DNA from: Sinanaerobacter sp. ZZT-01
Lineage (GTDB): Bacteria; Bacillota; Clostridia; Peptostreptococcales; Anaerovoracaceae
Direction: 5' to 3'
Length of the DNA stretch: 64,000 nucleotides
Assembly (NCBI RefSeq): GCF_035621135.1
Contig: NZ_CP141728.1
Location: forward strand, 1,488,001 to 1,552,000
Below are positions 43,083-64,000 of the stretch, one piece after another. Numbering within the stretch: position 1 is the stretch's first letter; every line of letters begins with the position of its first letter. Position numbers and translations under genes: made by a program. The notes under the pieces are model-generated. The model was not told the DNA's origin and made no database searches. It saw only the letters and a list, made by a program, of their open reading frames with translations.

Positions 43083-43100
43083 AAGATTGGAGATGTAATA

Positions 43101-45042: not shown

Positions 45043-47345
45043 TTCGTAATGACATTAAGAAAAGTAAACTTATTAACATAATCATGATGTTGTTTATCGC
45101 TTCGGCAGCTATGCTTGTGTCACTTGCTGCAGTGCTTACGGTTAATCTCTTCGGATCAATTGATACACTTATGACAAGAGCTGAAACGCCGCATTTTATG
45201 CAGATGCATTCGGGAACAATAGATAGGAGTCGGCTTGAACTCTTTGCGGAGCAGAACGGAAATGTTGAAAAACTACAGATAGCTGAGTTTTTAAATATTG
45301 ATGGGGCAGAGATTACCATCGGCGAAAATTCTCTTGCAGGATCGGTACAGGATAATGGTTTAAGTACGCAGAGCAGTGATTTTGACTATCTATTCGATCT
45401 GGACGGGCAAGCAATAAATGCTTCTGATGATGAAGTCTACGTTCCGATATGCTATTTGAAGGATGGAACCGCAAAAGTAGGAGATCGTATACGGATATGC
45501 GGAAAATCGTTTACTGTTGCGGGGTTTGTTCGGGATTCACTAATGATGTCGACCCTTTCTTCCTCAAAGCGTTTTCTCGTAAGCGATAACGCCCTCACGG
45601 CACTTAAAGACAGCGGAAGTGTTGAATATTTGATTGCGTTTCGGCTAAAAGATCAGGCGGGGATCTCCGACTTTGAAACAGCTTATACGTCAGCGGGACT
45701 CGAAAGGAACGGGCCAGCCATCACATATCCGCTTATCAGAATACTGAACGCAATCAGTGACGGAATGATGATCGGCGTGATACTGCTCGTGAGTCTGCTC
45801 ATTGTTGCAGTCGCCTTCTTATGCATACGCTTTACGTTACTAGCTAAAATGGAAGAAGATTTCCGGGAAATTGGAGTTATGAAAGCGATCGGGTTGCGTG
45901 TAAGCGATATTAAACGGATCTACCTTTCAAAATATGCTGCTCTTGCGGGTTTGGGGTGCACTCTAGGCTGTGTGCTTTCTTTCGCATTTAAAGGCATGCT
46001 TCTTGAGAACATTCGGCTGTACATGGGCGAAAACGAAGATGCAGGCATCGCTATTCTTTTCGGAATTTTTGGGATTGTGTTTATCTTTTTTGCTGTCCTT
46101 ATATTTGTTAGTGGCGTACTGAGACGTTTACGAAAGTTATCAGCAGCAGAAGCGGTTCGTTTCGGAACAACTCAGGAAAAAGCAAGCAAGAACAGGAGAT
46201 TATCTTTGAGTCGGAATCGGCTTATGAGTACGAATGCTTTTATGGGTATCATTGATGTTTTCTCAAGAAAAAGACTGTACACATCTATTTTAATCGTCTT
46301 TTCCATTGCAATTTTTATCACGGTAGTTCCCAAGAATCTCTATAACACCCTTTCTTCCAAAGATTTCATCGAGTACATGGGAGTTGGAAACTGTGACCTC
46401 AGATTTGACATTTAGCAGACTGATGACATTTCCGGAAAAGCTGCTGAAATTGCTGAGACGTTGGAAATGGACAGCAATATTTCAAAATATACTGTGCTTA
46501 CAACAAAATCTCTGAAAATGATAACCGATGAGGGAACGGAGGATACGATAAAGGTTGAGCTTGGCGATCACTCTATTTTCCCCGTCAAGTATAGCTCTGG
46601 AGAAGCACCTTCCTCTGAAAACGAAATCGCACTTTCAGCAATCAACGCAAAGGAACTAGAAAAAGAGGTGGGGGATTCCATAAGCTTGGTGATTGGAGGA
46701 AAGGAAAGAAATCTTTCTGTTTGTGGAGTATACTCTGATATCACCAATGGCGGGAAAACAGCAAAAGCGATATTCACCGATGAAACGGCAGCAACCATGT
46801 GGTGCGTGATCAGTGCAGAGTTTGCAGACGATGTATCTATTGGTGGAAAGATAAAGCATTATACAGCAGCATTTACCTTTGCCAAAGTTTCTGACGTGGA
46901 TGAATATATATACCAAACCTTTGGGTCGACAATAGGCTCCGTAAAAAACGCAGCAGTTGTCTCGGCTTCGGTTGCGCTAATTATTTCTGCGTTAATAACG
47001 GTGTTGTTTATAAAAATGATCCTTTCCAGAGATCGATATTCGATTGCAGCGATGAAAGCATTGGGTTTCAGGAGCTCAGATATAGAAAAGCAGTACATCT
47101 CGAGGTTGATTTTTGTTCTCATAATAAGCATGGTCGTTGGCACAATTCTAGCAAATACACTCGGCGAAGTTCTCGCAGGGGCCATTATTTCTTCTTTCGG
47201 TGCTTCATCGTTCAAGTTTATTATTAATCCTGTCAGCGCTTACATTATTTCTCCACTCATGCTGCTATTTGCTGTGCTTGTCGCAGTCTTTATAGGTGTG
47301 CATGATGCCGGAAAGATAAAAATACCCGAATACATTAAGGAGTGA
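45027..47345 (+). pseudogene. ABC transporter permease (FtsX type) with an in-frame amber stop
   Basis: One continuous frame of about 773 codons is broken only by a TAG at 46413-46415 (codons before it read NCDLRFDI, after it QTDDISGKA). The first part (462 residues) carries the N-terminal helix, an extracytoplasmic domain and an FtsX domain (FREIGVMKAIGLRVSD). The second part carries another extracytoplasmic domain and a C-terminal FtsX domain (IAAMKALGFRSSD). This is the normal length of a two-FtsX-domain permease. A single C-to-T change from CAG would explain it. The second part has an internal ATG at 46461 but no good ribosome binding site. TAG is an ordinary stop elsewhere in the window (tyrS, prmC). 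A sequencing error is also possible. Confidence 0.75.
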
Positions 47346-49465: not shown

Positions 49466-49493
49466 TTGAAATTATTAATATGTGTGATATGAT
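49466..49493 (+). promoter_or_regulatory. Likely promoter of the NRPS operon
   Basis: TTGAAA, a 16-base spacer and TATGAT. The predicted start falls at or just inside the palindrome that follows, as expected for a repressor-controlled promoter. Confidence 0.65.
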
Positions 49494-49498
49494 ATTGG

Positions 49499-49524
49499 CA
49501 TAAGTTAGCATATGCTAACTTATG
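49499..49524. promoter_or_regulatory. Perfect 26-bp palindrome, probable iron-box-like operator of the NRPS operon
   Basis: CATAAGTTAGCAT is followed directly by its exact reverse complement. The core TTAGCATATGCTAA shares the TTAG-N6-CTAA pattern with DtxR/IdeR-type boxes. It sits five bases after the -10 element. Control by a metal-responsive DtxR-family repressor is an inference; no such gene is in the window. Confidence 0.75.
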
Positions 49525-49530
49525 GAAAAT

Positions 49531-49548
49531 AAGTTGGTAAATGCGAAC
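49531..49548. promoter_or_regulatory. Second, degenerate copy of the operator
   Basis: AAGTTGGTAAATGCGAAC matches the inner 18 bases of the palindrome (AAGTTAGCATATGCTAAC) at 14 positions. It is centred 28 bases downstream, suggesting cooperative or two-site binding. Confidence 0.45.
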
Positions 49549-49584
49549 AAAATTCTAAGCTATTATAGCAGAAAGGTGAGGTAA

Positions 49585-50361
49585 GTGGATACTATAATAC
49601 TAAATAAATATTTTCCATTTGAAAGTAAATATTTAACGGGCTATGAACCTAAGATATTCTGTTTTCATCATGCGGGCGGAACCGCCGCGACATATAGAAA
49701 ATGGACGTTAAAGCCATCTTCTGTGCATTTCATTTGTGTAGAGCTTCCGGGCAAGGGGGCTCGGCGCAGTGAAATCTTTGAGAATGATTTTAAATCTATT
49801 TTAGATCCATTATGCCAAGCAATCATAGAAAAAAGCGATGGGAAACCTTTTCTTTTATTTGGACACAGTATGGGTGCAGCGATGGCTTTTTATACGGCAT
49901 ATAGGCTTGAAACCTTTTACGGGATAACTCCGCAGAGACTGATCGTTGCAGGGAGACAGGCGCCAAATGAAGAGAATCCTATCGAATTCAAGACACACAT
50001 GCCTGACAGCGCGTTGCTCGATGAGCTAAAGCGTTATAAAGCCACTCCAAAAGAAGTTTTTTTAAATAACGATTTATTAAAGCATATCGTTTCAGAATTA
50101 CGCAGGGATTACGAATTAAATGAAAGCCTCATATACCATGGAGAGCGCATAAGCATACCCATTTTTGCACATGCGGCAGACCAAGATTGCGAGGCAGACC
50201 CAGACGTTATGAGCAGATGGGGTTCTGTGACGACAAGTCGGGTCAGTGTAAGTGGATTCAAAGGAGAGCACTTCTTTGTTTTAGAAGATTGGTATCGCGC
50301 CCAGCTTGTTTGCGCTGCTGTCGACGGAGGCTTACCAGAGAGAGAAGGAGTAGCGACATGA
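49585..50361 (+). CDS. Type II thioesterase (NRPS editing, PchC/YbtT-like)
   Basis: A 258-residue alpha/beta hydrolase that clears misloaded carrier proteins in nonribosomal synthesis. It has the family start FCFHHAGGTAATYRKW, nucleophile Ser95 in GHSMG, and a catalytic His in GEHFFVLED. It starts at GTG with AGGTGAGG upstream. Its stop overlaps the NRPS start by four bases (ATGA). It is the first gene of the cluster, corresponding to PchC in the pyochelin pathway. Confidence 0.93.
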   Translation: MDTIILNKYFPFESKYLTGYEPKIFCFHHAGGTAATYRKWTLKPSSVHFICVELPGKGARRSEIFENDFKSILDPLCQAIIEKSDGKPFLLFGHSMGAAMAFYTAYRLETFYGITPQRLIVAGRQAPNEENPIEFKTHMPDSALLDELKRYKATPKEVFLNNDLLKHIVSELRRDYELNESLIYHGERISIPIFAHAADQDCEADPDVMSRWGSVTTSRVSVSGFKGEHFFVLEDWYRAQLVCAAVDGGLPEREGVAT

Positions 50362-53261
50362 AAAGAGCGATTCACTTAAATGCGGAAACGAACGTATTGT
50401 CAAAAGAACAGATGAAAACGCAGGCATTTGTTCGAGAATCAGTCAATCAGACCGATAAAGAGATTGTAGCATCCTGTATTCACGAAGGCTTTTTTAAAAG
50501 TGTAAAGCAAACACCAGACTTGACAGCTGTTGTGTGGCTTGAAAAGGGAAAAAAAAGAACACTTACATATCAACAGTTGTATTCTGAGGTTATGAAAACC
50601 GCTGCTTTATTAAAAGCACGAGGAATAAAATCGGATAGTAATGTTCTAATTACACTGCCCAAAGGGTATGAGCAGATCATTGCCGTTCTTTCTGTACTTG
50701 CATTAGGCTGTACATATGTGCCGGTCAACGTATCGCATCCACAAAAACGAGTGGAGCGGATTACTCAAGCTACTGGTGCTGTACATGTGCTGACAAATAA
50801 AGAGTATGTAAATACAAGACAACTTCCGTTCGGATTGCTGCCTGTAATGATTGAGGAACGTACGCAGTATGATGAAATGCTCTCCCCGCTTTTCCCTGAT
50901 CCGCAGGCTGCTGCTTATATTATTTTTACATCAGGTTCTACGGGAGAGCCGAAGGGCGTCGTTATCTCACACGATGCAGCGAATAACACCATAGTTGACA
51001 TCAACGAAAAAATGAATATTGGCAGGAGAGATTGCATATTTGCTATATCGGAATTGGACTTTGATTTATCTGTGTACGATGTCTTTGCGCCTTTAAGTGT
51101 AGGCGGGTGTGCCGCACTCATATCGGAAGAGGAAAAAAAAGAGCCTGCAAGCTGGATGGAAATAGTAAAGGCTTTAGAGGTAACGGTTTGGAATAGTGTT
51201 CCAATGCTTTTTAACATGCTTCTGACGGTCTGTGAATCCGTAGGGGAGAAGCTGCCTTTAAAGATAGTTATGTTGTCGGGAGACTGGGTGCCGCTAAACC
51301 TATATGATCGCTTAAAAAAAATAGCAGACAGTTGCCGTTTGATCGCTTTGGGAGGGGCTACAGAGGCCGCTATTTGGTCGAATTATTACGAAGTACTGGG
51401 CATATGCGAAGAATGGAGATCAATACCTTACGGAAAACCGCTAAGTAATCAAAAGATGCGGGTCGTAGATAAAAACGGCTTGGATTGTCCGGACTATGTA
51501 AGCGGGGAACTGTGGATCGGAGGGCGCGGGGTTGCGAAAGGGTATATACAGCAGGAAGAGCTGACGCAGGAGCGCTTTTGTTCAGTAGATGGAGTCCGTT
51601 GGTATCGGACAGGAGATCGTGCCCTTTATTGGGAAGACGGAACTGTGGAGTTTTTAGGAAGGCTGGACAATCAGGTAAAGCTAAGAGGGTACCGGATTGA
51701 GTTAGGTGAAATAGAGTCTGTCTGCAAATTGGAGAAAATGATTGAAGATGCGGCAGCAGTTGTGATCGAAAGCAATCGATCTTCTCAGTTGGCTTTGGCT
51801 GTAACGGCAAAGAAAAATCAAAATCGACAAGCCCACTGTGTTCTGCAAAAGGACAAGACAAAATGGAAAGATGAGAAGTTAAACGAGAGAAAAAATTTAA
51901 TCGAAGCCTACCTGTTACATTTATGCTCGTTTGATAACTTAGTTATCAATTCGGAAAAAAGATGGGTCAGTAAGCAGGCTCAGCCTTTATTTGATTTTTG
52001 GTGCCGTTGGTTACAGCGCCAAGATATTGTAAAAATAGAAGATGGAATCATAACAGCGGGAAATCGTTACCGAGAGGTTGATGTTAGCCGGTGCAGAAAA
52101 ACAACGCCATTACAAGCTGTATTAAATCAGAGCGTGGAGACATATCGCAAAATACTTTCTGGAGAAGACGCTGCAAATGTGATACTTCAAATGGAAGAAC
52201 TTTCTCCGGAAGCATTGTCTATGCAGGGAAGCCACATCCGTTCTTGCATTGACCAGATTGCTTCCATAATCAAGCAGCATTCCGGCGGTGGCGTAAAAAT
52301 AGCTGTGCTGGGTGCTAGAACCGGCCTTGCGGCTAAATATCTTTATGACAAACTGGAAGGAATTGCATGCGAACTGACACTTTTTGATGATTCAGCAGGA
52401 TTGCTCCATCAAGCTGAAAAAAGATGGGATGAAAGCTGCACCGTTGTTCGGTACGCATCGACTTCCAACGGGATGCTTGCATCGGAGCATGTCCATACAT
52501 ATGATTTTGCAGTTTCTGTAAATGCACTTCACCGATATGTTAATCCTCAGAGCGGGCTTGATTATGCATACTCATTACTAAAAAAGCAGGGATGCTTGCT
52601 GGCCGTAGAGCTTGAGGAACTAGACCCAGTGGCACTGATTTCATCAGCTGTATTGGAAAATGGATTTCAGAGGTTTGCCTGCATGAGGAAAAGAGCTGAT
52701 ACACCACTGCTGGATAAAGAAGAATGGCAGCAAATATTTTTAAAATCTCAATTTGAACATACAAAAATTACGGTTTCTGCGGACGACGGGGTGCTTTTCA
52801 TTGAAGCTAAACGCGGAAAAGAAAAGGAGTTTACATTGATGCAGCTGCAAGAGGAGCTTTGCAACTACTTGCCACAATATATGATTCCGGATACAATCTG
52901 TCTGTTTCTTCAATTTCCTTTGAATGATAACGGGAAAATTGACCGTAGAAAAATAGTAGACACCATTTCTGCAACTGCACAGCAAGACGTAGCTGATACT
53001 GTATATTCCCGCATGGAAGAGCGGATTGCAGCCATTTGGCATGAATTACTTGGCTGTGGAGCGGTTGGCAGACAGCAGGGTTTTTTTGAAATCGGAGGAG
53101 ACAGCCTTTCTGCAACAAAATTTATCTCATTACTAAAGGAAGATGTGGGAATTAATTTTTCTTTGCGTGAAATCTTTGACAATCCGTTTTTACAAAGCAT
53201 AGCGGCTTTAGCCGAGAAAAAACTGGATCATCTTGAGCCGGTGGTGGAGGGAGAACTGTGA
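50358..53261 (+). CDS. Nonribosomal peptide synthetase, A(embedded MT-like)-PCP, cysteine-specific (PchE-like core)
   Basis: A 967-residue synthetase. The adenylation core is residues 45-490 (A3 FTSGSTGEPKG 190-200, A7 YRTGD 416-420). The A10 lysine (NGK, 860) is separated from the core by an embedded methyltransferase-like domain (about 560-830), as in PchE/PchF and HMWP2. A carrier domain follows, with Ser916 in EIGGDS. The specificity residues read D236, L237, Y240, N279, M305, S307, L331, I339, W340, one change from the cysteine code DLYNLSLIW. The embedded domain has a damaged SAM motif (VLGARTG), like the epimerase-type domain of PchE. There is no condensation or cyclisation domain and no N-terminal aryl carrier; a stand-alone Cy gene at 60838 may supply the former. 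Confidence 0.93.
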   Translation: MKRAIHLNAETNVLSKEQMKTQAFVRESVNQTDKEIVASCIHEGFFKSVKQTPDLTAVVWLEKGKKRTLTYQQLYSEVMKTAALLKARGIKSDSNVLITLPKGYEQIIAVLSVLALGCTYVPVNVSHPQKRVERITQATGAVHVLTNKEYVNTRQLPFGLLPVMIEERTQYDEMLSPLFPDPQAAAYIIFTSGSTGEPKGVVISHDAANNTIVDINEKMNIGRRDCIFAISELDFDLSVYDVFAPLSVGGCAALISEEEKKEPASWMEIVKALEVTVWNSVPMLFNMLLTVCESVGEKLPLKIVMLSGDWVPLNLYDRLKKIADSCRLIALGGATEAAIWSNYYEVLGICEEWRSIPYGKPLSNQKMRVVDKNGLDCPDYVSGELWIGGRGVAKGYIQQEELTQERFCSVDGVRWYRTGDRALYWEDGTVEFLGRLDNQVKLRGYRIELGEIESVCKLEKMIEDAAAVVIESNRSSQLALAVTAKKNQNRQAHCVLQKDKTKWKDEKLNERKNLIEAYLLHLCSFDNLVINSEKRWVSKQAQPLFDFWCRWLQRQDIVKIEDGIITAGNRYREVDVSRCRKTTPLQAVLNQSVETYRKILSGEDAANVILQMEELSPEALSMQGSHIRSCIDQIASIIKQHSGGGVKIAVLGARTGLAAKYLYDKLEGIACELTLFDDSAGLLHQAEKRWDESCTVVRYASTSNGMLASEHVHTYDFAVSVNALHRYVNPQSGLDYAYSLLKKQGCLLAVELEELDPVALISSAVLENGFQRFACMRKRADTPLLDKEEWQQIFLKSQFEHTKITVSADDGVLFIEAKRGKEKEFTLMQLQEELCNYLPQYMIPDTICLFLQFPLNDNGKIDRRKIVDTISATAQQDVADTVYSRMEERIAAIWHELLGCGAVGRQQGFFEIGGDSLSATKFISLLKEDVGINFSLREIFDNPFLQSIAALAEKKLDHLEPVVEGEL

Positions 53262-54340
53262 TTGGAATCCTTGGTGGATGTGGTGATATTGGAGGTAAGC
53301 TGTCACAGATACTTTCTAATGAAACAGAGGAAGTGATACGTATCGGGGGCAGGCATAAGAAGCACACGGTACAATTTGATAATAAGCATTTCGCGTGGAT
53401 GCAGGCAGATGTGAGTGACGCTGGCAGTTTACGGGCGTTTGTTGATGGTTGCCGCATTGTGGTAAATTGTGCCGGATTAAAAAAAGAAAGTTCTGCGCAG
53501 GTAGCAGAAATAACGACGGATGCCGGCAGCCATTACGTCGATCTCGGTGCGGCTGAACAGAGTCCATCCTCCTTGAAAGGAAATAGTGGTCTGTGTGCGG
53601 TATACGGTGCCGGCTCAATGCCAGGTTTATCCGGACTACTGCCTCGCTGGCTTTCGAAGAAATTTGACAGGGTATTTGATTTGGAATTTTATTATGCGGG
53701 GCTTGGCTCGTTTACTGAGACTGCCGCCCGAGATTACTTAGAGGGATTATCGGATAGTCAGAATAAAGCAATTGCGATATGGAAAGATGGACGGGCAGTT
53801 CCATTCACGTCGCAGAGTGCCCGTATAAAAGTATCGCAGCAGTATGTGAGGGCATTCCCGTATTTTGACGAAGAGTCCTCCTTTGTTGCCCAAGAACTCC
53901 GTCTGAAAAACGGAGTATGGTATATGGGGATTGATGGAGATTGTACTTGCAAGGCTTTGGAAAAAATTAAATACAACTATATGCGCAATCCGTATGAAGC
54001 AGTCAAGGATTTATGTGCAGCGTCAAAAGCGGATTGCGCTGCCAGAAAGGGATATGCGGGAATGTTGATTCAGCTGAATGGAGAGCGTTCCGGTAGAAAA
54101 AAAACGGAGACACTCCGTTGTCTGTTCAGAAGCCCATCTCATTTCACTGCCTCAGCGACTGCGGCTGTAGTTTTGGCTATATCAAAACATAAAATGCCAA
54201 AAGGATCATATCTTCTTGGGAAAAGCCCACACACGGAAGGATACACGGAGGAACTGATGAAAATAGCTCCTTCTGGGGGAATACAGATTTATGAGCATAC
54301 AATTGGAGAATTGTATGAAGAGGTAGAGGGGGCGCTTTAA
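53258..54340 (+). CDS. Saccharopine dehydrogenase-like NAD(P)-binding oxidoreductase
   Basis: A 360-residue protein with an N-terminal Rossmann motif (GILGGCGDIGG) and the saccharopine dehydrogenase-like pattern VVNCAGLKK...DAGSHYVDLG, plus VYGAGSMPGLSGLLP. It starts at GTG and overlaps the NRPS stop by four bases, so it belongs to the pathway. Pyochelin and yersiniabactin clusters have one reductase; here it is a second oxidoreductase, so it may reduce or rearrange an intermediate, or make an opine-like bond as in staphylopine-type metallophores. The precise role cannot be read from sequence. Confidence 0.82.
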   Translation: MIGILGGCGDIGGKLSQILSNETEEVIRIGGRHKKHTVQFDNKHFAWMQADVSDAGSLRAFVDGCRIVVNCAGLKKESSAQVAEITTDAGSHYVDLGAAEQSPSSLKGNSGLCAVYGAGSMPGLSGLLPRWLSKKFDRVFDLEFYYAGLGSFTETAARDYLEGLSDSQNKAIAIWKDGRAVPFTSQSARIKVSQQYVRAFPYFDEESSFVAQELRLKNGVWYMGIDGDCTCKALEKIKYNYMRNPYEAVKDLCAASKADCAARKGYAGMLIQLNGERSGRKKTETLRCLFRSPSHFTASATAAVVLAISKHKMPKGSYLLGKSPHTEGYTEELMKIAPSGGIQIYEHTIGELYEEVEGAL

Positions 54341-54341
54341 T

Positions 54342-55424
54342 ATGAGTGGTAAAATACGCGTTATTGTGTGCGGAACGACATTCGGTCAGCATTATTTAAA
54401 AGCATTGGAACAGCTGCGTGGGCAGTTTGAAGTTGCCGGACTTTTTGCAAAGGGGAGCGAGCGATCAAGGTTATGTGCGGAAAAGCATAATATCCCGCTA
54501 TATACGTCAATGGCAGACTTACCGGAGGATATTGACCTAGCTTGTGTTGTAATTCGCTCCGGTGCAATTGGAGGCAAGGGAACTGAAGTAGCTCTGCAAT
54601 TTTTGGAAAAAGGAATCAGTGTGATACAAGAGCAGCCAATTCATCCAAAGGATTTGGAATTATGCCATCGAACTGCCCGAAAGCATAAGGTGCACTTTAT
54701 GACAGGAGATCTGTATCCAAATCTCCCGGAAGTAGAGCGTTTTATAACAATTGCCAGAGAACTGAATAAGACGGAGGCTCCCGTTTATGTCAATGCATCC
54801 TTTGCGCCGCAGGTTTCCTACCCTGCGATGGATATACTCATGCAGGCTCTTCCGTCTGTCCGAAACTGGAAGATTTATCATTTAACTCAGGAAGTGGGGC
54901 CGTTTGATGTATTGGTTGGAGAACTGGGCTCTATCCCTATTACAATTGAATACCATAACCAAATCAATCCGCATGACCCGGATAATTACATGCACCTTTT
55001 GCACAATATTGCGCTGGTGTATGAAAGTGGACGCCTTACCTTGGAAGACACCTTTGGACCGGTGACCTGGAAGCCGCGGATGCATATACCGACATTGCTG
55101 TACAATACGGCAAACGCAGAGGAGACATATCCTGCGTATTTGGATGAAAATTCAATGGAAATATTGGGAGACTATAAAAGCAGAAGTTTTAAATCTGTTG
55201 TGACACAGGGGTGGCCATATGCCATTTCGAAGGATTTAATTTCAGTAAGAGAATTAATTTTGGGAGAGAAGAATGTGAATCAAAAGGCGCAGCAGGAAAT
55301 TTTATGCGCATTACAATGGACGGAAATGACAAAAACATTTGGCTATGCACGCTTGACAGAGGACAATGAGCGTCACTACACTCCATTTCAAATGATTAAA
55401 ATGACTGCTGACAGTATTAAATAA
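54342..55424 (+). CDS. Thiazolinyl imide reductase (PchG/Irp3/YbtU family)
   Basis: A 360-residue Gfo/Idh/MocA-fold enzyme. In pyochelin and yersiniabactin synthesis, this family reduces one carrier-bound thiazoline to a thiazolidine with NADPH. The match to Irp3-type proteins is clear: VIVCGTTFGQHYLKAL, GLFAKGSERSRLCAE, CVVIRSGAIGGKGTEVA and VIQEQPIHPKDLELC. It starts one base after the previous stop. Its presence strongly implies that the cyclised cysteine is reduced in the final product. Confidence 0.92.
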   Translation: MSGKIRVIVCGTTFGQHYLKALEQLRGQFEVAGLFAKGSERSRLCAEKHNIPLYTSMADLPEDIDLACVVIRSGAIGGKGTEVALQFLEKGISVIQEQPIHPKDLELCHRTARKHKVHFMTGDLYPNLPEVERFITIARELNKTEAPVYVNASFAPQVSYPAMDILMQALPSVRNWKIYHLTQEVGPFDVLVGELGSIPITIEYHNQINPHDPDNYMHLLHNIALVYESGRLTLEDTFGPVTWKPRMHIPTLLYNTANAEETYPAYLDENSMEILGDYKSRSFKSVVTQGWPYAISKDLISVRELILGEKNVNQKAQQEILCALQWTEMTKTFGYARLTEDNERHYTPFQMIKMTADSIK

Positions 55425-55439
55425 GGAGCTACGAAAAAT

Positions 55440-58400
55440 ATGGAATTTCAAAAGGGAAAAGAATTAATTGAATATTTTATGGATCAAGGAATCCAACTGT
55501 GGACAGAAGAAGGAAAATTGCGCTATAAAGCGCCTTTATCTTCCCTGTCTGAGGAAACATTGCAGATACTCAAAGATAACAAAGCAATACTTGTTGATTA
55601 CATGACGGCAAGTGAGGAGGAGCAGGTGAAATCGGATCCGGAATCTAAGTATGATCCGTTTCCAATGACCGATATTCAGACCGCATATGTTTTGGGGCGG
55701 AAAGATACCTTCCAATATGGTGGGGTTGCCTGCCATGTTTACTTAGAGCTTTTGTATGAATCACTTGAGGAAGAAAGGGTGCAAGCTGCTTGGCAAACCT
55801 TGATTGAACGTCACGACATGCTTCATGCAGTAATGTATGAAAATGGATACCAAGCGATACTGGAGGATATTCCTGAAATCCGCGTGAATTGCTACGATAT
55901 GAGAGATGATGAAGAAAAATTGGTGAGGCTGCGTGAGGATATGGGACACCGCATGTACCCGCTTGGAAATTGGCCTATGTTTGAAATTGCTGTATCCAAA
56001 CATAGTCACGAAGATATTCTTCATTTCTCAATGGAGTTTCTTTTGGCTGATTGGGTCAGCATATGGTCCTTATTTGCTGAATTTGAAAAAATTTATTTTA
56101 ATAAAGAAGAGGTGAATCCGGAAATACGTGTCACTTTCCGTGATTGTGTGTTAGGAGAAAAAAGAATCAAAAACGGAGATTCTTATCTAAGGGATAGAAA
56201 ATATTGGTTGGAGCAGTTGGAACGATTTCCGTCTGCACCGCAGCTTCCCTTGAAACGTAATCTTTCAGAAAGCATTCGGCCGAAGTTTGAGAGGTATATG
56301 CTGCGTCTGAATCCGGATCGCTGGAATTCGTTGAAAGCAAACGCTCAGGTTGTGGGAGTTACGCCCACCGTTTCTGTACTTACGGCATACGCCGATGCAC
56401 TCGCCCGTTGGAGTCTAAATCGGGACTTTTGCATAAATATGACGGTACTGAACAGGATGCCGATCTTTAAGGATATTAACCGCGTGGTTGGTGATTTCAC
56501 ATCGCTGAATTTATTGCCGGTTTATTATAACAGGGAAGATAATTTCGTCCAACGGGCAAAAAATATAAACAGCAGACTATTCAACGATTTGGATCATAGG
56601 CTTTATTCCGGCGTCGAGATGATTCGTGAATTGGTAAAAATTCATGGGCGTGAACTGTCACTTATGCCGATTGTATTTACAAGTGCAATCGGATTGGTAG
56701 ATTCAAATAATCAATTGATTGGACAGTTTGGAGATTATGGGATTACGCAGACACCGCAGGTCTTTATTGATTGCCAGGCGATGGACGGTTATTTCGGACT
56801 ACAGGTAAACTGGGACGTTCGGAAAGGAATTTTTCCCGACGGGTTGATCTCCGATCTGTTCTGCGCATTTGAACAGCAGCTGAATCTACTGGCTGAGCAG
56901 TGTGAGAATTGGAAGAATCCTCTGCATGTGAGCCTGCCGGATTGGCAAAAAAGCGAAAGAGAACATGCGAATGCGACAGAGGCTCTCTTGCCAAATGGCG
57001 TACTACATGAAAAATTTCTTGAAATGGTGAAAAAGTATCCAAAACATACGGCAGTTGCTGATGCACATGGGGAATTGTCTTATGAAGAGCTTGACCAGCT
57101 GGCCAGGCAGGTTGCTGAAGAAATTATTCGTTCAGGCGGCAGGCAGCAGGATAACATTGCCGTCATCATGGAAAAGTGTCGCTATCAGGCGGCAGGCGTA
57201 CTAGGCGTACTTTATATGGGTGGTGTTTATGTTCCGATTGATGCGAAGCAGGCTCAAATACGGAGAAATAAAATCCTTGAGAATGTCAAAAGTGAGATTA
57301 TTTTGACGACATCTGATTTGAAAACGGCATTTGATGAAAAATTATCGGTGATTGAAGTAGATCAATTGAATCTGTCAGAAACTGACTTCGTTCCAAGACT
57401 GACCGGCGCTTCCAAGCCTGCATATATCATTTATACATCAGGCTCTACCGGCGAACCGAAAGGCGTCGTTATCTCTCATGCGGCGGCTCGTAATACCATT
57501 GAGGACATCAATGCAAGATACCAGATCGGGCATAATGATGCGGTGTTCGGAATCTCACAGTTGAATTTTGATTTATCGGTATATGATCTTTTTGGGCTAT
57601 TATCGGCAGGTGGTACAGTGGTTTATCCGGATGCCGCAAGATATATGGATCCAGAGCATTGGAGTGAGCTGATCAAGAAGTATCGTGTCAGCATTTGGAA
57701 CAGCGTGCCAGCATTGATGCAAATGTTCTTAACATACTTAAAATCATATCAAGAAGAAGACATACCGCTACGGATCGCACTTTTATCCGGTGATTGGATT
57801 CCTTTGGAGCTGCCCGAACAGCTTCTTAAAGAAATTCCGGAGCTAAGGCTTGTCTCACTGGGTGGAGCGACGGAAGCATCAATTTGGTCCAATTACCACG
57901 AATATCAGGAGGTACAAAAAGATTGGGTCAGCATTCCGTATGGCAGACCTCTTTCAAACCAGAAATACTATATACTTGATGCCGAATTTCAGGATTGTCC
58001 GGTATGGAAGGCCGGCGCTCTTTACATAGCGGGCAGCGGTCTTGCGGAATGCTATTTCGGCGACTCTGAATTAACAGATGAAAAATTTGTCCGCCACCCG
58101 CATACCGGAGAACGTATCTATTGTACGGGAGATATGGCACGCTATCTGCCTGGCGGAGAGATTGAATTTTTAGGAAGAAAGGACACGCAAATTAAGATAC
58201 GGGGGAACCGCATTGAATTAGGGGAAATCGAACATGTATTAAGCCACGCACCGTCAGTTCAGTCCGCAGTCGCCTGTGTGAATCAGAATAAAAATGAAAT
58301 TTTAGCATTGGCAGAAATTCGGCAGGACGGAAATTATGATAAAAAAAAATCTAGCGAAGATTTTTTGATGCTTACAAAGGACATTGAGATATCGGCTATA

Positions 58401-60845
58401 AAAGAGAATCAAGAACTATACGGTAAAAATTTTGATAAGGCCCTTCAAAGCAGAAATACTGCCGCTGCATATGCAATGTGTCGGGCAATTGAGGAAAGTG
58501 GTTATTTCGCTACCGATGCATTGGAGCATATTGATGAAAAGTACCATTGGATCGTACGGCACTGGGCGGCGCATTTACAGAAACAGGGGTATTTTAACCA
58601 ACAGGCCGACGGGTTGCGAGACGGCTTGGATATCTCCCGAAATGCAGTAGCTAAAAAGTGGAGTGAGGCATACCGGGCCTGGGATACTGCGTTGGGAAGC
58701 AAAGATATCATTGACTATATTAAGCTGAATGCAGACAACCTCACGGAGATTTTATCCGGAAAGGCTGATCCCGTGGGATTCCTTTATTCAAATGGAGAGG
58801 ATCGTTTTGTAGAAGCTCTGTATATTAATAATTCCATGGCAGCGTATTTGAATCGTTGCATTGAAGAAACATTACGAAAAATTGTATCAAAGGCATCTGG
58901 ACGGAAGCTAAGAGTTCTTGAAATAGGAGCGGGAAGCGGGGCAACAACAGAATATGTCCTTCGAGCTTTGGAAGGAGCGGAATTTGAATACTATTTTACG
59001 GATGTTACCAAATACTTTTTTCCGGCGGCAAAAGAAAGATTTATCAATCCTAATATAAAGTTTTGCCTGTTGGACATTGACGATGATATGAAAATGCAAG
59101 GGTTTGCATCAAATTACTTTGACATTATTGTAGGTGCTTATGTTATGAATAATGCCAAAGATATCAAAAAAAGCCTTAAACAGATAGAAGAATTAATTGC
59201 GCCAAAGGGATATTTCTTGTTTTCTGAGCCGGTTCAGGAGGAGACTTGGCTGCTCGCTTCCCAAGCCTTAATGATGAATCAGCCGCAAGATGATTTGAGG
59301 AATAAATCGCTATTTTCGAGCGTTGAAGATTGGATTCGACTTCTAGGAGAAGATTCGCCAGTAAAAGTGGTACCAAAGGATGGTTCAGAACTTCAAAAGC
59401 TATCTGTTTCTCTCTTCATCAAGCAATATAAAACAGATCAGTGCATTGTGGATGAGAATGAGTTAAAAAGCTATCTTTCTTTACATTTACCGGAATATAT
59501 GATGCCATCTCATATTATTTTCACAAACCGGTTTCCGCTGACTTCAAATGGTAAAGTAGATCGAAAGCAAGCGTTGAAATGGGCAGAGGTTTTTACAAAT
59601 TCACATGAGGCAGATGTGGGTGAGGATGCGTCGATGCAGCTTGAAAATAAGCTTGAAGAGCAGGTGGCACAAATCTGGAAGGGACAGCTCAATATAGATA
59701 AGATAGGAAAAAATCAAAATTTTTATGATTTTGGGGCAGATTCGCTAATCATGGCACAAGCTGCAACAAAGATAAGGAATGTATTAAAATTGGATATTCC
59801 ATTTGATTCGATATTGCGGCAGATGCTTAATTATCCGACAGTCAAGGATACGGCACAATTTATTTCACATGAAAAGAAAAAGGATAAGAGTGAAGTTGAC
59901 GAAAAAGAAGATTTTAATGACAACCATTCATTTGCTTATATTCAAAATTACGGCAGAGACTCTGGCGAGCAGCGGGCTCGGATATTGATACACGGTGTGT
60001 TGGGATCGGTAGATATTTTCCGTCATTTAGGTCCGGCACTTGCAGAGCAAAAGCAGGGAAACGTTTTCGCAATTGGTATTGCGGATATAGAGCAGTACTG
60101 CAAGCTGCAAGCGGATGAGGCGGTGGAGTTTTTAGCCGATCAATATACGGAGCTCTTGTGCGATATGAAAGTCAAACATGTTCAGATAATCGGCTACAGC
60201 TTCAGCGGTGTGGTTGCAGTTGAGCTGGCTAAGCGCCTTTTAGAAAGGGGCATTGAGGTCGATGACGTGTCAATTGTTGACGGAGGAACTATGCCGATTC
60301 AGCTGCAGGAGGAGTTGCTGTATGAATTGTTATTTCTTGACAATATCCATGTAACATTAAAAGACTTGGGATTTGGCAGTCAGGCATTGCTGGAGAAAGC
60401 TTTTATGCAGATCGAGCAGAGTAAAAACAAAACCTTGGCATTGGTGGACATGAATCTGTCTGACGGCGACAGAGAACGCATTGAAGAGCTGAGGCTGGCT
60501 TCACAGCCGGATCGGTTTGAATTGTATGCGCAGATCAGCAGGGAAAACAGCGGTATGCTTATTGAACCGAAAGTGATGACTACACTTTTTCATACTTTTA
60601 AACAGTCTTTTCAAGCATTGCAGTTTGTACCAGAAGCTTATTTTGGGGATATTCATTATTATGCGTCGAAGGATAGGAGGGGAGTATTTCAGCATCTGGA
60701 TATGCTGCTGGATTATTGGGAAAATGTCTGCCTTGGCGAATTTAGCCGCACAGAAATTGACGGAAACCATTATACTTGTCTTGAAAATAAGGAAAATGCG
60801 ATTCGTTTAGCGTCGATGCTTAAGGAGGCGTTACTCAATGCATGA
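55440..60845 (+). CDS. Nonribosomal peptide synthetase, docking-Cy-A(MT)-PCP-TE, cysteine-specific (PchF-like)
   Basis: An 1801-residue synthetase with the PchF layout: a TubC-type docking domain (about 1-58), a heterocyclisation domain (about 72-500), an adenylation core (about 520-960, A3 YTSGSTGEPKG), an embedded methyltransferase with an intact SAM motif EIGAGSG (1161-1167), the A10 lysine 1372, a carrier with Ser1435 (FGADS), and a thioesterase (Ser1587 in GYSFSG, His in DGNHYTC). The specificity residues D711, L712, Y715, N754, L781, S783, L807, I815, W816 spell DLYNLSLIW, the cysteine code. The Cy active motif is ExxxxDxxS (Glu199, Asp204, Ser207) instead of DxxxxDxxS. Predicted: adds and cyclises a second cysteine, N- or C-methylates it, and releases the product. 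Confidence 0.95.
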   Translation: MEFQKGKELIEYFMDQGIQLWTEEGKLRYKAPLSSLSEETLQILKDNKAILVDYMTASEEEQVKSDPESKYDPFPMTDIQTAYVLGRKDTFQYGGVACHVYLELLYESLEEERVQAAWQTLIERHDMLHAVMYENGYQAILEDIPEIRVNCYDMRDDEEKLVRLREDMGHRMYPLGNWPMFEIAVSKHSHEDILHFSMEFLLADWVSIWSLFAEFEKIYFNKEEVNPEIRVTFRDCVLGEKRIKNGDSYLRDRKYWLEQLERFPSAPQLPLKRNLSESIRPKFERYMLRLNPDRWNSLKANAQVVGVTPTVSVLTAYADALARWSLNRDFCINMTVLNRMPIFKDINRVVGDFTSLNLLPVYYNREDNFVQRAKNINSRLFNDLDHRLYSGVEMIRELVKIHGRELSLMPIVFTSAIGLVDSNNQLIGQFGDYGITQTPQVFIDCQAMDGYFGLQVNWDVRKGIFPDGLISDLFCAFEQQLNLLAEQCENWKNPLHVSLPDWQKSEREHANATEALLPNGVLHEKFLEMVKKYPKHTAVADAHGELSYEELDQLARQVAEEIIRSGGRQQDNIAVIMEKCRYQAAGVLGVLYMGGVYVPIDAKQAQIRRNKILENVKSEIILTTSDLKTAFDEKLSVIEVDQLNLSETDFVPRLTGASKPAYIIYTSGSTGEPKGVVISHAAARNTIEDINARYQIGHNDAVFGISQLNFDLSVYDLFGLLSAGGTVVYPDAARYMDPEHWSELIKKYRVSIWNSVPALMQMFLTYLKSYQEEDIPLRIALLSGDWIPLELPEQLLKEIPELRLVSLGGATEASIWSNYHEYQEVQKDWVSIPYGRPLSNQKYYILDAEFQDCPVWKAGALYIAGSGLAECYFGDSELTDEKFVRHPHTGERIYCTGDMARYLPGGEIEFLGRKDTQIKIRGNRIELGEIEHVLSHAPSVQSAVACVNQNKNEILALAEIRQDGNYDKKKSSEDFLMLTKDIEISAIKENQELYGKNFDKALQSRNTAAAYAMCRAIEESGYFATDALEHIDEKYHWIVRHWAAHLQKQGYFNQQADGLRDGLDISRNAVAKKWSEAYRAWDTALGSKDIIDYIKLNADNLTEILSGKADPVGFLYSNGEDRFVEALYINNSMAAYLNRCIEETLRKIVSKASGRKLRVLEIGAGSGATTEYVLRALEGAEFEYYFTDVTKYFFPAAKERFINPNIKFCLLDIDDDMKMQGFASNYFDIIVGAYVMNNAKDIKKSLKQIEELIAPKGYFLFSEPVQEETWLLASQALMMNQPQDDLRNKSLFSSVEDWIRLLGEDSPVKVVPKDGSELQKLSVSLFIKQYKTDQCIVDENELKSYLSLHLPEYMMPSHIIFTNRFPLTSNGKVDRKQALKWAEVFTNSHEADVGEDASMQLENKLEEQVAQIWKGQLNIDKIGKNQNFYDFGADSLIMAQAATKIRNVLKLDIPFDSILRQMLNYPTVKDTAQFISHEKKKDKSEVDEKEDFNDNHSFAYIQNYGRDSGEQRARILIHGVLGSVDIFRHLGPALAEQKQGNVFAIGIADIEQYCKLQADEAVEFLADQYTELLCDMKVKHVQIIGYSFSGVVAVELAKRLLERGIEVDDVSIVDGGTMPIQLQEELLYELLFLDNIHVTLKDLGFGSQALLEKAFMQIEQSKNKTLALVDMNLSDGDRERIEELRLASQPDRFELYAQISRENSGMLIEPKVMTTLFHTFKQSFQALQFVPEAYFGDIHYYASKDRRGVFQHLDMLLDYWENVCLGEFSRTEIDGNHYTCLENKENAIRLASMLKEALLNA

Positions 60846-62319
60846 TGGAATAATAAATATAAAAGCCTGCACAGAGGTATTTAGCCTGTGTGAAGCTTCA
60901 GGAGTGAAGCTTTGGGCAGAAGGAGAAAAGCTCAGGTATCAAGCACCAAAAAATGCCTTAACAAAAAATTTAATTGAGAAGATTAAGGAAAGCAAAAACG
61001 ATATTATATTCTACCTTCAAAAGCTGGATGCGCTTTGTGGCAGTGCAGAGGCACTGCCACTTACGCCGATACAGAGTGCCTATTACATGGGACGGAGAGA
61101 AGATTATGAATTAGGAAATGTAAATGCACATTATTATATGGAAGCAGAGTATGGGGAAATTGATTGTGATCGGTTTCAGTCAGCAGTGAATACGGTTATC
61201 CAGCATCAGGATGCCTTGCGTAATGTGATACTCCCAAACGGCTTGCAGCTGATTCAAGAGAGGGTGCCAGAATATTCCGTACCCGTGCATGTATTTCAAT
61301 CGGAGCAGGAGCGTGAAGAGAGCAGGGAAGCTTGGTCGCATCATAAATACCCTTATGGAGTATGGCCTATGTTTGATATTCACATTAGCTCCGTGCAGAG
61401 CTGTGACTGGCATTTGCATATCAGTTTTGATTGCATGATATTAGATGCATGGAGCTTATTAATGATGCTCCATAACCTGATGGAAGTATACCAGGGCAAA
61501 GACGTTACGTGGCCCAATTATAGCTTTCGGCAGTATTGCTTGGAGGAAAGCAGTTACAGAGAAAATAAGAAGGAGCAATCCCTTCAAGCTGAGGCATATT
61601 GGAGTAGAAGGGCACCCGAAATGCCTCCCTCCCCGCAGCTGCCTTACTGTAAAAATTTATTTGAAATAAAGAGTCCCCGATTTTTCCGGCTCCATTCCTA
61701 TTTATCAAAGGAGGACACCAGAATTTTATATGAGCGAGCCAAGCAATATCGTTTGACACCGGCCGCAGTTATTTGCACCGCCTACATGAAGACTCTGTCC
61801 GAATTTAGTACGGAGCAAAGTCTGTCGATCAATATCACTCTTTATAATCGACTTCCGCTTCACAGAGATGTCACGCGGGTTTTAGGCGATTTTACAAATA
61901 ATGCACTTGCAAGCTACGAAGGCGAGGGGCAAACCTTTCTCGAGGAAGTAAAGCTTACGCAGGCACAATTTTGGACATTGGTGAAATATAAGGATTATCA
62001 CGGTGTGGATTTGATAAAAAAATTGAGTAGAAGCCAGCCGGGAAAAGCAGTTATGCCTGTGGTTTTTACAGGGGTTTTACAGGGGCTGAAGTCCGAATTA
62101 AATTATTTTCCGGAGGGGATGAGAGAAATTTACTGCATCAGCCAAACACCGCAGGTTGTTCTCGACTATCAGGCAACCGATTTTTCCGGCCGGCTTTCGG
62201 TAAATTGGGACTATGTTACAGAAGCTTTTACGGAAAAACAGATTCAGGCGATGTACCAGTCGCACTTGGCTCTTTTGAAAGCAATCATTCAGACAAATGA
62301 TTGGAATATGTCGATTTAA
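60838..62319 (+). CDS. Stand-alone docking-heterocyclisation (Cy) protein
   Basis: A 493-residue protein with a TubC-type docking domain (about 1-62) and a single Cy domain (about 70-490) carrying the perfect DxxxxDxxS motif (Asp198, Asp203, Ser206 in FDCMILDAWS) and VLGDFTNN. It has no adenylation or carrier domain. The cysteine-loading protein at 50358 lacks a Cy domain, so the likely job is to join the starter acyl group to that cysteine and close the first thiazoline in trans. It overlaps the previous gene by eight bases. In known pathways this Cy is part of PchE or HMWP2. Confidence 0.92.
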   Translation: MHDGIINIKACTEVFSLCEASGVKLWAEGEKLRYQAPKNALTKNLIEKIKESKNDIIFYLQKLDALCGSAEALPLTPIQSAYYMGRREDYELGNVNAHYYMEAEYGEIDCDRFQSAVNTVIQHQDALRNVILPNGLQLIQERVPEYSVPVHVFQSEQEREESREAWSHHKYPYGVWPMFDIHISSVQSCDWHLHISFDCMILDAWSLLMMLHNLMEVYQGKDVTWPNYSFRQYCLEESSYRENKKEQSLQAEAYWSRRAPEMPPSPQLPYCKNLFEIKSPRFFRLHSYLSKEDTRILYERAKQYRLTPAAVICTAYMKTLSEFSTEQSLSINITLYNRLPLHRDVTRVLGDFTNNALASYEGEGQTFLEEVKLTQAQFWTLVKYKDYHGVDLIKKLSRSQPGKAVMPVVFTGVLQGLKSELNYFPEGMREIYCISQTPQVVLDYQATDFSGRLSVNWDYVTEAFTEKQIQAMYQSHLALLKAIIQTNDWNMSI

Positions 62320-62363
62320 AAATATGGGTAAATTGGGCTTATTGAAACAGATGAGGTGAAAAA

Positions 62364-64000
62364 ATGAAAAGTATGGAGATGTCATTTCCAAATTTGCGTG
62401 AAATGATTCAATATCAGTGTGTAAACAGCGGTAAGAAGATTATTTTTATAGACCAAAATGGTACAAATGTTTTAAATTACAGGCAGCTTGGGCGTTGCAT
62501 ATGCAAAATAAGCGAGTTGCTGATGCAAAAGGGGATTCATAAAGGAGAGCGTGTTATTCTTCAAATGAACAAGAAACAACATGTGTTTATCACGATTCTT
62601 TCCTTGATTTATATGGGAGCAATTCCGATCCTGTTACCTGTTTGCATCAATGAGGTTCAATATCGGCAATTTAAAAGGATTTCTGAGCAAAATCCTGCGT
62701 TTCATATACTGTGTGATAAGTCGGGAGAAAAGTATCTCAATTTTTATAGCGGGGATAGCCCTGCATCTATCGTCTTGGAGGATAACGAATTTGAGGCAGA
62801 AGATACAAGAGGCAAAAGCATTTTTAAACAGTATGATGATTTATCAGTTGTGACGGATGAAGCCGCTGTTTTATATTCCTCAGGAAGCACATCTGATCCG
62901 AAGGGAATTGTATGGACACATAACAGTGTTCTGAGTATATTGTCTGCAACTGCACAGGAATATAAGGTAACTTCTGAGGATATTTTTATGGCATGGTATC
63001 CCCTTGAACATACACTAGGACTTACTTATTTTATGCTGCTGCCGATTTTTATGGGCTGCGAGATTGTGCATCTAGACAAGGAAGCATTTGCAGAAAACCC
63101 AAAAAGCTGGTTTGACGCGATTGAAAAATATAAGGCCACCATATCCTCCGCACCGAATTTTGCGTTTCAGCGGATGAGTAAGCTCATCACTATGCAGGAC
63201 AGCTGGAGGCTTGATAGTATAAGGCTGATGCTTAATTCAGGAGAGCCGATTTCGCACGAAGTAACAGAGCAATTTTCTTTAAAAACAAAGAGGTTTGGAT
63301 TATCTGCCGATCGCATGGTTCCTATGTACGGATTGACTGAAGCCAGTGGTACCCCTATTACAAATACTCAGGGCTGGTGTCCTCAGATTTCTGCCCGGCA
63401 GCTTAAGGTGGGAATTGAATTTAATGAAAGTGCGTTAGAATTGCTGCTGAAAGATATCGTTTGCCAAGGAAAGCCAATCTCAGGGGTATCGATGAAGATT
63501 GTTGATGAGAATGAAGTCGAGCTGGGTGAAGATACTGTTGGATACATACAAATCGGAGGAAAAACGTTAAGCAAAGGCTATCTCAATATAAAAAATGACG
63601 ATTTTTTTAATAATGGATGGCTTAATACCGGCGATATCGGTTTTATAAATCAAGGGCTGCTTTTTATTATTGGAAGAAAAAAGGACATGTTTTTTTTAAA
63701 TGGACGGAATATTTTTCTTCGAGACATTGAGCAGATGATTCAGGAAGAATTCGGTTGGAGGTGTGCTGCATGTGGCGAAAATATTGCACAGGAAGGCAAG
63801 TCGCTTATTTATGTGTTTATAGAGCTGAAAATAACCGAAGAGGAGATAACGGAGAAAAAAAGAAAGATTATGCAAAGGGTATACTCCAAATCCGGAATAC
63901 GCTTAGAGGATGTTATTTTTGTAAGCAGCCTTGCTATGACACAAGTTGGTAAAGTGAATAAGCCACAGCTGCTTCAGAGCTATAGAGACGGTATCCAATG
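62364..64000 (+). CDS. Acyl-AMP ligase (FAAL/adenylation type), starter enzyme, truncated by the window end
   Basis: The frame is open from the ATG at 62364 (GAGGTG upstream) to the window end, at least 545 residues. Motifs in order: A3 YSSGSTSDPKG, the fatty-acyl-ligase-like MAWYPLEHTLGLTYF and ISSAPNFAFQRM, A5 MYGLTEASG, A7 NTGDIGF with GRKKD, and the A10 lysine in VGKVNKPQL close to the edge. The overall pattern is closer to fatty-acyl-AMP ligases than to salicyl-AMP ligases (PchD/YbtE). It probably activates the starter acid. A carrier domain could follow A10 beyond the window; none is visible elsewhere in the cluster for the starter. Confidence 0.88.
   Translation, partial: MKSMEMSFPNLREMIQYQCVNSGKKIIFIDQNGTNVLNYRQLGRCICKISELLMQKGIHKGERVILQMNKKQHVFITILSLIYMGAIPILLPVCINEVQYRQFKRISEQNPAFHILCDKSGEKYLNFYSGDSPASIVLEDNEFEAEDTRGKSIFKQYDDLSVVTDEAAVLYSSGSTSDPKGIVWTHNSVLSILSATAQEYKVTSEDIFMAWYPLEHTLGLTYFMLLPIFMGCEIVHLDKEAFAENPKSWFDAIEKYKATISSAPNFAFQRMSKLITMQDSWRLDSIRLMLNSGEPISHEVTEQFSLKTKRFGLSADRMVPMYGLTEASGTPITNTQGWCPQISARQLKVGIEFNESALELLLKDIVCQGKPISGVSMKIVDENEVELGEDTVGYIQIGGKTLSKGYLNIKNDDFFNNGWLNTGDIGFINQGLLFIIGRKKDMFFLNGRNIFLRDIEQMIQEEFGWRCAACGENIAQEGKSLIYVFIELKITEEEITEKKRKIMQRVYSKSGIRLEDVIFVSSLAMTQVGKVNKPQLLQSYRDGIQ

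Follow-up and report, generated by a model that had tools for sequence, protein, structure and literature searches.

Whether a run of seven synthetase-related genes in a probably anaerobic Firmicute serves to scavenge iron, and what kind of compound it would make, is the question raised by the end of the DNA considered here (the window, 64,000 nucleotides of the genome of Sinanaerobacter sp. ZZT-01, C1:1488001-1552000, with position 1 at C1:1488001; positions past 64000 continue in the same numbering and are called extended). A preliminary description of the window proposed that these genes form a pyochelin/yersiniabactin-type metallophore operon with a rearranged assembly line. The functions that it assigned to the seven same-strand genes (49585-64000) are confirmed by Pfam, by the GHSMG motif and by TIGR01761, and the proposed metallophore function and kinship are supported by sequence evidence, to which an operator shared with an iron regulon adds strength. 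Based on this evidence, the genes probably form a siderophore operon that is repressed by iron, is related in kind to those for equibactin, yersiniabactin and pyochelin, and has a split-module line using four cysteines. The gene and domain order, the codes, the motifs and the operator regulon were read from the sequence; from such data we infer the order of action, ring state, methyl sites, metal, direction of transport and identity of the regulator.

Organization of the assembly line

The last of the seven genes is cut by the end of the window. The genome is a single contig (3,370,808 bp), and when the cluster is followed past position 64000, as the preliminary description had proposed, it runs for about 17 kb more, to about extended 80828, with genes eight to fifteen on the same (plus) strand. 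All 15 reading frames are open with one terminal stop each, and the condensation-domain matches in the genome (E up to 0.001) number four, all of them inside the cluster. Domains were assigned with Pfam profiles, and NCBIfam and PDB sequence searches were made for selected proteins.

The loading synthetase (62364-70388 extended, in the window to 64000; 2,674 aa) has, from Pfam, codes and motifs, the arrangement ligase (AL)-PCP-Cy-A-PCP-Cy-A-PCP, where PCP, Cy and A denote peptidyl carrier, cyclization and adenylation domains. A free-standing TubC_N-Cy protein of 493 aa (60838-62319; Pfam, with the motifs DCMILDAWS and TPQVVLDYQ) is the predicted partner of a 967-aa protein (50358-53261), which consists of A(Cys), an embedded epimerase-type (E) domain and a PCP, ends in VEGEL, and by its domains, code and alignment is a PchE module without its Cy. 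The terminal module is a PchF-like protein of 1801 aa (55440-60845; hereafter F) with the order TubC_N-Cy-A(MT)-PCP-TE (MT, methyltransferase; TE, thioesterase), as read from Pfam, codes and motifs. The other enzymes are a type II thioesterase of EqbB/PchC-like type (49585-50361; 258 aa, GTG start; Pfam Thioesterase 5.9e-37, GHSMG), a saccharopine-dehydrogenase-like (SDH-like) reductase of EqbM/PchK-like type (53258-54340; 360 aa, C-terminus VEGAL; Pfam Sacchrp_dh_NADP 3.7e-7), a thiazolinyl imine reductase of YbtU/Irp3/PchG-like type (54342-55424; 360 aa; PDB 4gmf 1.1e-35), and, identified by Pfam past the window, a reductase-methyltransferase fusion (extended 70411-72612) and a phosphopantetheinyl transferase (PPTase; extended 72757-73623). 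Pfam also identifies a TetR regulator (extended 73773-74390), two ATP-binding cassette (ABC) half-transporters (extended 74513-76237 and 76249-77973), and the S (Trep_Strep), T and A components of an energy-coupling factor (ECF) transporter (extended 78031-80828).

Counted over the whole line, there are four A domains with Cys codes, four Cy domains and one loading carrier. The codes are DLYNMSLI, DLYNLSLI, DLYNLSLI and DLYNLSLI, so that, judged against the codes known from characterised Cys domains, all four of the amino-acid A domains carry the cysteine code. The first two of these lie in the window, where the preliminary description had correctly recognized them; however, its count of two A domains for the line falls short, as two more are present in the 2,674-aa synthetase. 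Similarly, the carrier that it reported missing is present past the window end, where a loading carrier with an NDSL motif follows the ligase; its apparent absence is an effect of the window edge, because the window ends inside the loading synthetase gene. The observation that the PchE-type Cy is a separate protein holds.

In regard to the catalytic motifs, these are, as judged from the sequence, mostly intact, and the degradation of active sites that could have spoken against a functional cluster is for the most part not borne out. The Cy core DxxxxDxxS is present in 3/4 Cy domains, that of F reading ExxxxDxxS (as do the PchF-like homologues of two related genomes, G692 and G011, whereas those of G849, G706, Klebsiella pneumoniae and Burkholderia arboris have Asp); in the B. 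arboris comparison locus, which is unannotated, pchE and pchF were assigned by homology. The TxQxxxDxQ motif, matched to residues T474, D480 and Q482 of PchE (PMC8807600, in the text available), is found in all four Cy domains, the carrier Ser is kept in 5/5 carriers, and the terminal TE keeps its Ser (GYSFS) and His (GNH). The thiazolinyl imide reductase scores 264 bits with TIGR01761 and passes the cut-off of 188.8, whereas the N-terminal half of the fusion protein (RED2) scores 128.5 bits and falls below it. RED2 appears to be degenerate, because it has lost a Gly of the nucleotide motif (VCADAYAE versus VCGTTFGQ) and the His of the EQPIHP stretch, and the fusion can be read as a degenerate reductase joined to an intact methyltransferase.

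An alignment of 20 domains, embedded or fused, puts the one in the 967-aa protein with the epimerase type and not with the methyltransferases. At the column of PchE His1204 (residues counted on the alignment with PDB 7emy), which is named as essential in the available text of PMC8807600, His is found in 10/10 epimerase-type domains, whereas the 10 PchF-like or reductase-fused domains have Asn (8) or Glu (2). For seven of the ten epimerase-type domains the grouping follows from the position of the protein; the other three (one of G692, two of G611), which lie in other modules, were grouped largely from the alignment itself, and for these three the His1204 test is therefore partly circular. The second proposed epimerase residue, PchE Glu1234, is not conserved in the domain described here (Leu by alignment), and the acidic residue of its S-adenosylmethionine (SAM) motif is lost (AVLGARTG versus LEIGAGSG in F). 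For the SDH-like protein, a PDB sequence search gave no match at E 0.01, and an AlphaFold model built from a two-sequence alignment was discarded (pLDDT 35).

The starter unit and the predicted product

The best PDB matches of the starter ligase are McyG (4r0m, 1.9e-55), then 6ulx, which we take to be a StsA-type enzyme, and fatty acyl-AMP ligase (FAAL)-type enzymes (3kxw, 3pbk), whereas the best match to a dihydroxybenzoate (DHB) ligase is far weaker (1.3e-15 versus 1.9e-55). In NCBIfam the ligase matches long-chain and FAAL families, although none of the 25 matches listed lies above its cut-off. By these matches the ligase is of the FAAL/McyG class, and fatty, phenylalkanoic and keto acids are indistinguishable as its substrate; the proposal that the starter enzyme is fatty-acyl-specific is one possibility among these, McyG being the closest in the PDB. 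An aryl-acid (salicylate/DHB) AMP ligase with an aryl carrier is not seen, although a loading carrier is present.

In the proposed mechanism, the ligase would load a carboxylic acid, probably not salicylate, on the first carrier of the loading synthetase, whose two Cy-A-PCP modules would add two cysteines as thiazolines. The free Cy and the A(E)-PCP protein would act as a split third module adding an epimerised (D) cysteine, and F would add and methylate the fourth, with release of the acid by its TE. The thiazolinyl reductase, and probably the SDH-like enzyme as well, would reduce one or more rings to thiazolidines, and the fusion protein may add another methyl. The acyl-thiazoline-thiazolidine product envisaged earlier may thus be retained in kind, but with probably four Cys-derived units and not two. 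The ECF transporter would import the ferric complex and the ABC pair would export or import it, while a DtxR-family iron regulator would repress transcription at the palindrome AGTTAGN6CTAACT, the local TetR providing a second control.

The predicted operator and the iron regulon

Ahead of the first gene a sigma-70-like promoter (TTGAAA-16-TATGAT with an extended -10; 49466-49493, plus strand) is present as a consensus match only, and the promoter scan is weak (5 such matches in the stretch, against a mean of 2.5 with sd 1.7 in shuffled sequence). Directly past the -10 hexamer lies a 26-bp perfect palindrome, CATAAGTTAGCATATGCTAACTTATG (49499-49524), the predicted operator of a DtxR-family iron repressor. 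A second predicted operator, a 28-bp perfect palindrome with half-sites as in CATAAGTTAGCATATGCTAACTTATG, is located ahead of the first ABC gene (extended 74471-74498). The common core, AGTTAGN6CTAACT, occurs perfectly at 10 places in the genome, versus 1 for a reversed control pattern. With up to one mismatch, all 25 motif places lie outside open reading frames (ORFs) of at least 100 aa, versus 0/16 control places with the same ORF caller (Fisher P ~1e-11); when ORFs down to 50 aa are included, one motif place lies within an ORF, of 50 aa. Downstream of perfect sites are genes for FeoB, a protein of the iron-dependent-repressor family (Fe_dep_repress), a ZIP transporter and a NifH-like protein, and one-mismatch sites precede two consecutive FeoA genes and genes for a flavodoxin, another Fe_dep_repress protein and an ABC half-transporter. 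The two DtxR-family (Fe_dep_repress) proteins are encoded at C1:126015-126476 and C1:1387596-1388003. The operator regulon provides good sequence evidence that the predicted product is an iron siderophore. The NifH-like gene (C1:135935-136690), which directly follows its perfect site, may also belong to the iron regulon.

A different interpretation of these sites is that the product is a metallophore for another metal (Zn, Mn or Cu), with the AGTTAGN6CTAACT regulon under an MntR-like member of the DtxR family. The ZIP transporter at a perfect site, the compatibility of a Fe_dep_repress match with a manganese as well as an iron response, and the fact that the metal of the product is not readable from sequence are in accordance with it; however, FeoB, two FeoA and the flavodoxin carry the motif, which is an iron-starvation signature, and iron is for this reason favoured over other metals. 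The other-metal interpretation is accordingly considered unlikely, even though it fares best among the alternatives.

That the line makes an antibiotic or a signal of polythiazoline nature, comparable to bilothiazoles and tantazole-type compounds, and not a metal scavenger, is less probable still. The FAAL/McyG-like starter and the absence of a chelator-synthesis gene from the cluster would fit such a compound, and arylthiazoles of a Bilophila cluster are described, in the available text, as antibacterial. However, the iron-regulon operator stands at two promoters of the cluster, and ECF and paired ABC transporters accompany the line here and recur in most related clusters.

A number of observations weigh against the iron siderophore interpretation itself and should be considered together. 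With up to one mismatch the core is found at only 25 places versus 16 for the control. Some eleven neighbours in the scan have no obvious link to iron, viz. those encoding MATE, AraC, alpha/beta hydrolase, VOC, DUF3793, DUF2325, O-methyltransferase, permease, PNPOx-like, BspA-like and subtilase proteins; the scan covered twenty neighbours, leaving out those beside 1991842, 2949732 and 281629 and several short ORFs. The regulator gene within the cluster is a TetR and not a DtxR. The first Asp of the Cy core of F is Glu, and the RED2 domain looks degenerate. No salicylate or catechol synthesis gene lies in the cluster, to which the search for one was confined, and because of this the metal ligands are uncertain. 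Lastly, even equibactin was, according to the available text of PMC3672683, never seen by chrome azurol S (CAS) assay or by liquid chromatography-mass spectrometry (LC-MS).

In five relatives, the motif is found upstream in 2/10 stretches, viz. before the loading synthetase in G692 and before the homologue of the first ABC gene in G611. In G849 a palindrome resembling a Fur box, ATTGATAATAATTATCAAT, lies ahead of the thioesterase gene. Ahead of the TetR gene described here is another palindrome, GATAACTAAGTTATC (73738-73752), a candidate TetR operator; compared by eye, G849 has close copies of it and G825 less exact ones.

Relationship to known systems

The closest known kin of the cluster are those for equibactin and the clusters of Clostridium kluyveri and Clostridioides difficile RT023, for all of which the comparison draws on the available parts of the cited texts. 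Equibactin (eqbA-N, Streptococcus equi ICESe2; PMC3672683) shares with it Cy domains, a Cys-type A domain, a thiazoline reductase, the SDH-like EqbM, a type II TE, a PPTase, the EqbHIJ importer, the EqbK/L ABC proteins and a metal-dependent repressor, here a predicted one. However, in equibactin a single A domain probably serves three PCPs, the Cy domains number three, the ligase is of the salicylate type and the cluster includes a DtxR-like gene, whereas the present cluster has four A and four Cy domains, FAAL/McyG-like loading, a free Cy, the reductase-MT fusion and a local TetR. The single A domain in trans and salicylate start that mark equibactin proper are therefore not seen here, where four A(Cys) domains and a non-aryl-type ligase are found. 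Conditioned medium of E. coli carrying the equibactin enzymes lost its activity when EqbM was omitted (streptonigrin minimum inhibitory concentration (MIC) 1 versus 0.002; Table 2, PMC3672683), and the PchK of enantio-pyochelin is annotated as a saccharopine dehydrogenase; because of these two facts, a required reductase role of the SDH-like enzyme is likely. This enzyme, regarded earlier as an addition to the pyochelin set, has precedents in EqbM, PchK and C. difficile RT023. EqbHIJ is needed for most equibactin-dependent iron import in S. equi (PMC3672683), and we infer that it may be an ECF transporter like that found here, from the RT023 table, which names a cobalt ECF transporter.

The C. 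kluyveri NRPS (nonribosomal peptide synthetase) cluster 1 (CKL_1504-1523) and the 023_CTn1 cluster of C. difficile RT023 were compared by their descriptions (PMC3672683, PMC6814731) and not by sequence. Both are clostridial and have a saccharopine dehydrogenase, thiazolinyl reductase(s) and ABC proteins, and RT023 also has an ECF-type transporter (PMC6814731). However, both are described with a DHB/salicylate-type AMP ligase, and RT023 also with a salicylate synthase.

Pyochelin and enantio-pyochelin have in common with the cluster a PchE-type A(E)-PCP, a PchF-type Cy-A(MT)-PCP-TE with a TubC_N-like start, PchG and PchK. In contrast to them, the cluster lacks PchD/PchA/PchB-type genes, its PchE Cy is separate, and two extra Cys modules are present upstream; the order aryl carrier protein (ArCP)-Cy-A(E)-PCP in one PchE is replaced by a separate Cy of 493 aa and an A(E)-PCP protein of 967 aa. 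Micacocidin-type lines start with a ligase and an iterative polyketide synthase (PKS), and no ketosynthase (KS) or acyltransferase (AT) is found in the present loading protein. The pyochelin-like thiazoline NRPS region of the K. pneumoniae plasmid pINF237_01-VP (CP032834.1 55434-99877) has Cy-A-PCP-Cy-A(E)-PCP, an SDH, a reductase-MT fusion, an ABC pair and a PchF-like protein with 41% identity to F, but its Cy is not split off, and it has TonB receptors, a flavin adenine dinucleotide (FAD) oxidoreductase and a major facilitator superfamily (MFS) protein. Photoxenobactin/piscibactin (pxb; PMC9396620, in the text available) likewise involves four cysteines in a yersiniabactin-type line, but with a salicylate start and PKS domains, and in Proteobacteria.

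In view of these Firmicute precedents (equibactin, C. kluyveri, C. difficile RT023 and a Sporomusa thiazol(id)ine cluster discussed in PMC12971057), a Firmicute host does not by itself make the cluster new, contrary to what had been suggested. The available text of PMC12971057 lists in its phylum table 192 regions for Firmicutes_I and 28 regions (0.3% of genomes) for Firmicutes, with no further Firmicutes row. Its automated metallophore rule rests on chelator-synthesis genes, and as these are absent from the cluster, the rule would probably miss it. No paper on this cluster was found in the open-licence literature searched, and within that literature three features are new: a line of four A and four Cy domains that is loaded by a FAAL/McyG-type ligase, a PchE module split in several genomes, and the link to the operator.

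Distribution of related clusters

The thiazolinyl-reductase profile PF21390 matches in 2/296 genomes of the family and 2/398 of a phylum sample (the genome described here counted in each), and a reductase protein search matches in 7/393 genomes of the order (this genome counted), two of these being marginal; in the genus sample (2 genomes) a match is found in this genome only. The matches in G713 and G696 (E ~1e-4, ~110 residues) were not counted as thiazolinyl reductases. The closest relative is G692, a metagenome-assembled genome (MAG) labelled Halothermothrix, with identities of 54% for the type II TE, 45% for A(E)-PCP, 40% for the SDH-like protein, 67% for the reductase, 56% for F, 53% for the Cy and 44% for the fusion; its loading protein begins KS-AT-DH-KR (DH, dehydratase; KR, ketoreductase). 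This assembly has 5.1 Mb and 101 condensation-domain matches, which is odd for its label. G849 has the genes of the present cluster minus the fusion, with the ligase as a separate protein, the PPTase gene elsewhere and F without MT. In G706, where the contig begins inside the cluster, a free Cy and an epimerase-PCP without A are seen, with an A domain only in F. As the visible Cy and epimerase-PCP modules (C6:1-19999) have no A domains, a single A domain, that of the PchF-like protein, may serve several carriers in trans in G706.

An A(E)-carrier protein apart from its Cy is found in the genome described here and four others, with variations (G706 without A; in G011 a TubC_N-Cy is fused behind the loading protein). 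In contrast, G611 and the K. pneumoniae plasmid encode Cy and A(E)-PCP together in a single protein, and a Clostridiaceae plasmid does so for Cy-A-PCP; the split was not seen in the 20 kb covered of G825. The reductase-MT fusion is also present in G692, G706, G611 and the K. pneumoniae plasmid.

C-terminal tails as possible docking motifs

The C-termini VEGEL of the A(E)-PCP protein and VEGAL of the SDH-like protein resemble the five-residue Kj12B short linear motif (SLiM; residues L, R, G, E, I, LRGEI-type), which binds TubC_N-type domains (PMC6195595, in the text available). In a chosen set of 23 tails, a fit is seen in 8/8 epimerase-carrier, 5/6 SDH and 0/9 other proteins. In a wider count over 11 stretches, 17 of the 119 cluster proteins of at least 180 aa have an EGEL-type tail, viz. 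14/54 with the start of the next gene between -30 and +12 nt, as against 3/65 otherwise, and three of the 17 are on other proteins (ABC proteins of G611 and the Klebsiella plasmid, and a thioesterase of G011). From these counts and the three unrelated proteins, overlap with the ribosome site of the next gene explains much of the tail pattern. However, two tails too distant from the next gene (G611, 23 nt; the SDH-like protein of G011, 63 nt) still end epimerase-carrier or SDH-like proteins. In G611, G825 and the Clostridiaceae plasmid the SDH-like protein ends in a tail that does not match the pattern, and, by eye, the docking domain of F apparently has Lys (LRYK), where the charge rule of PMC6195595 favours a Glu tail, and that of the free Cy has Gln. 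Docking of A(E)-PCP to F and recruitment of the SDH-like protein by C-terminal tails are thus possible.

Genomic setting

Synteny with the congeneric genome G088 (79% identity) ends at position 40727, 6 bp past tRNA-Ala(GGC) (40646-40721), and picks up again near extended 93287, ~52.6 kb on; in G088 this interval is occupied by ~9.4 kb of different sequence. A search of 163 kb found no duplicated tRNA end, and no integrase was recognised by eye among the ORFs at 80.8-94.5 kb, of which only the first was scanned with profiles. For these reasons, the idea of an integrative or mobile element was dropped, and the region is called a variable segment. A near-identity search of window positions 1-25000 against plasmids gave no match. 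The RpoB protein matches PDB 7l7b (C. difficile) and 8i23 (C. thermocellum) best, with 1919 and 1859 bits, and 6wvj (B. subtilis) less well, with 1637 bits, so that the organism probably belongs to Clostridia. In view of the 15/15 open frames, the kept catalytic motifs and the perfectly palindromic operators, it is very improbable that the cluster is a decaying or silent, horizontally acquired one, despite its location in this segment bounded by a synteny break at tRNA-Ala, the degenerate RED2 domain and the failure to find the reductase genes in the sole other genome of the genus examined.

Ahead of the siderophore operon, the variable segment also contains (40871-43751, by eye) an MFS-like protein and two nearby divergent TetR-like regulators, followed by another MFS protein. 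At 44961-47345, beside an ABC ATPase, a permease identified by eye as FtsX-like spans two ORFs (44961-46415 and 46461-47345) and may be a split or broken gene.

Significance of the cluster

A broader interpretation is that a Clostridia-type clade makes an undescribed class of iron siderophores, in which a non-catechol, non-salicylate acyl starter would be joined to four contiguous Cys-derived thiazoline/thiazolidine rings by a line with the PchE module split into a free Cy and an A(E)-carrier protein; the SDH would perhaps be recruited by the VEGEL/VEGAL docking motif that also joins this carrier protein to TubC_N domains. This suggestion is a tentative one, and its probability is lowered by the wider tail count, which is less clean. 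The cluster itself is whole, on a single-contig genome, and has its operator in common with an iron regulon. It thus provides a defined locus for asking what the thiazoline siderophores of anaerobes look like and what the SDH-like enzyme does.

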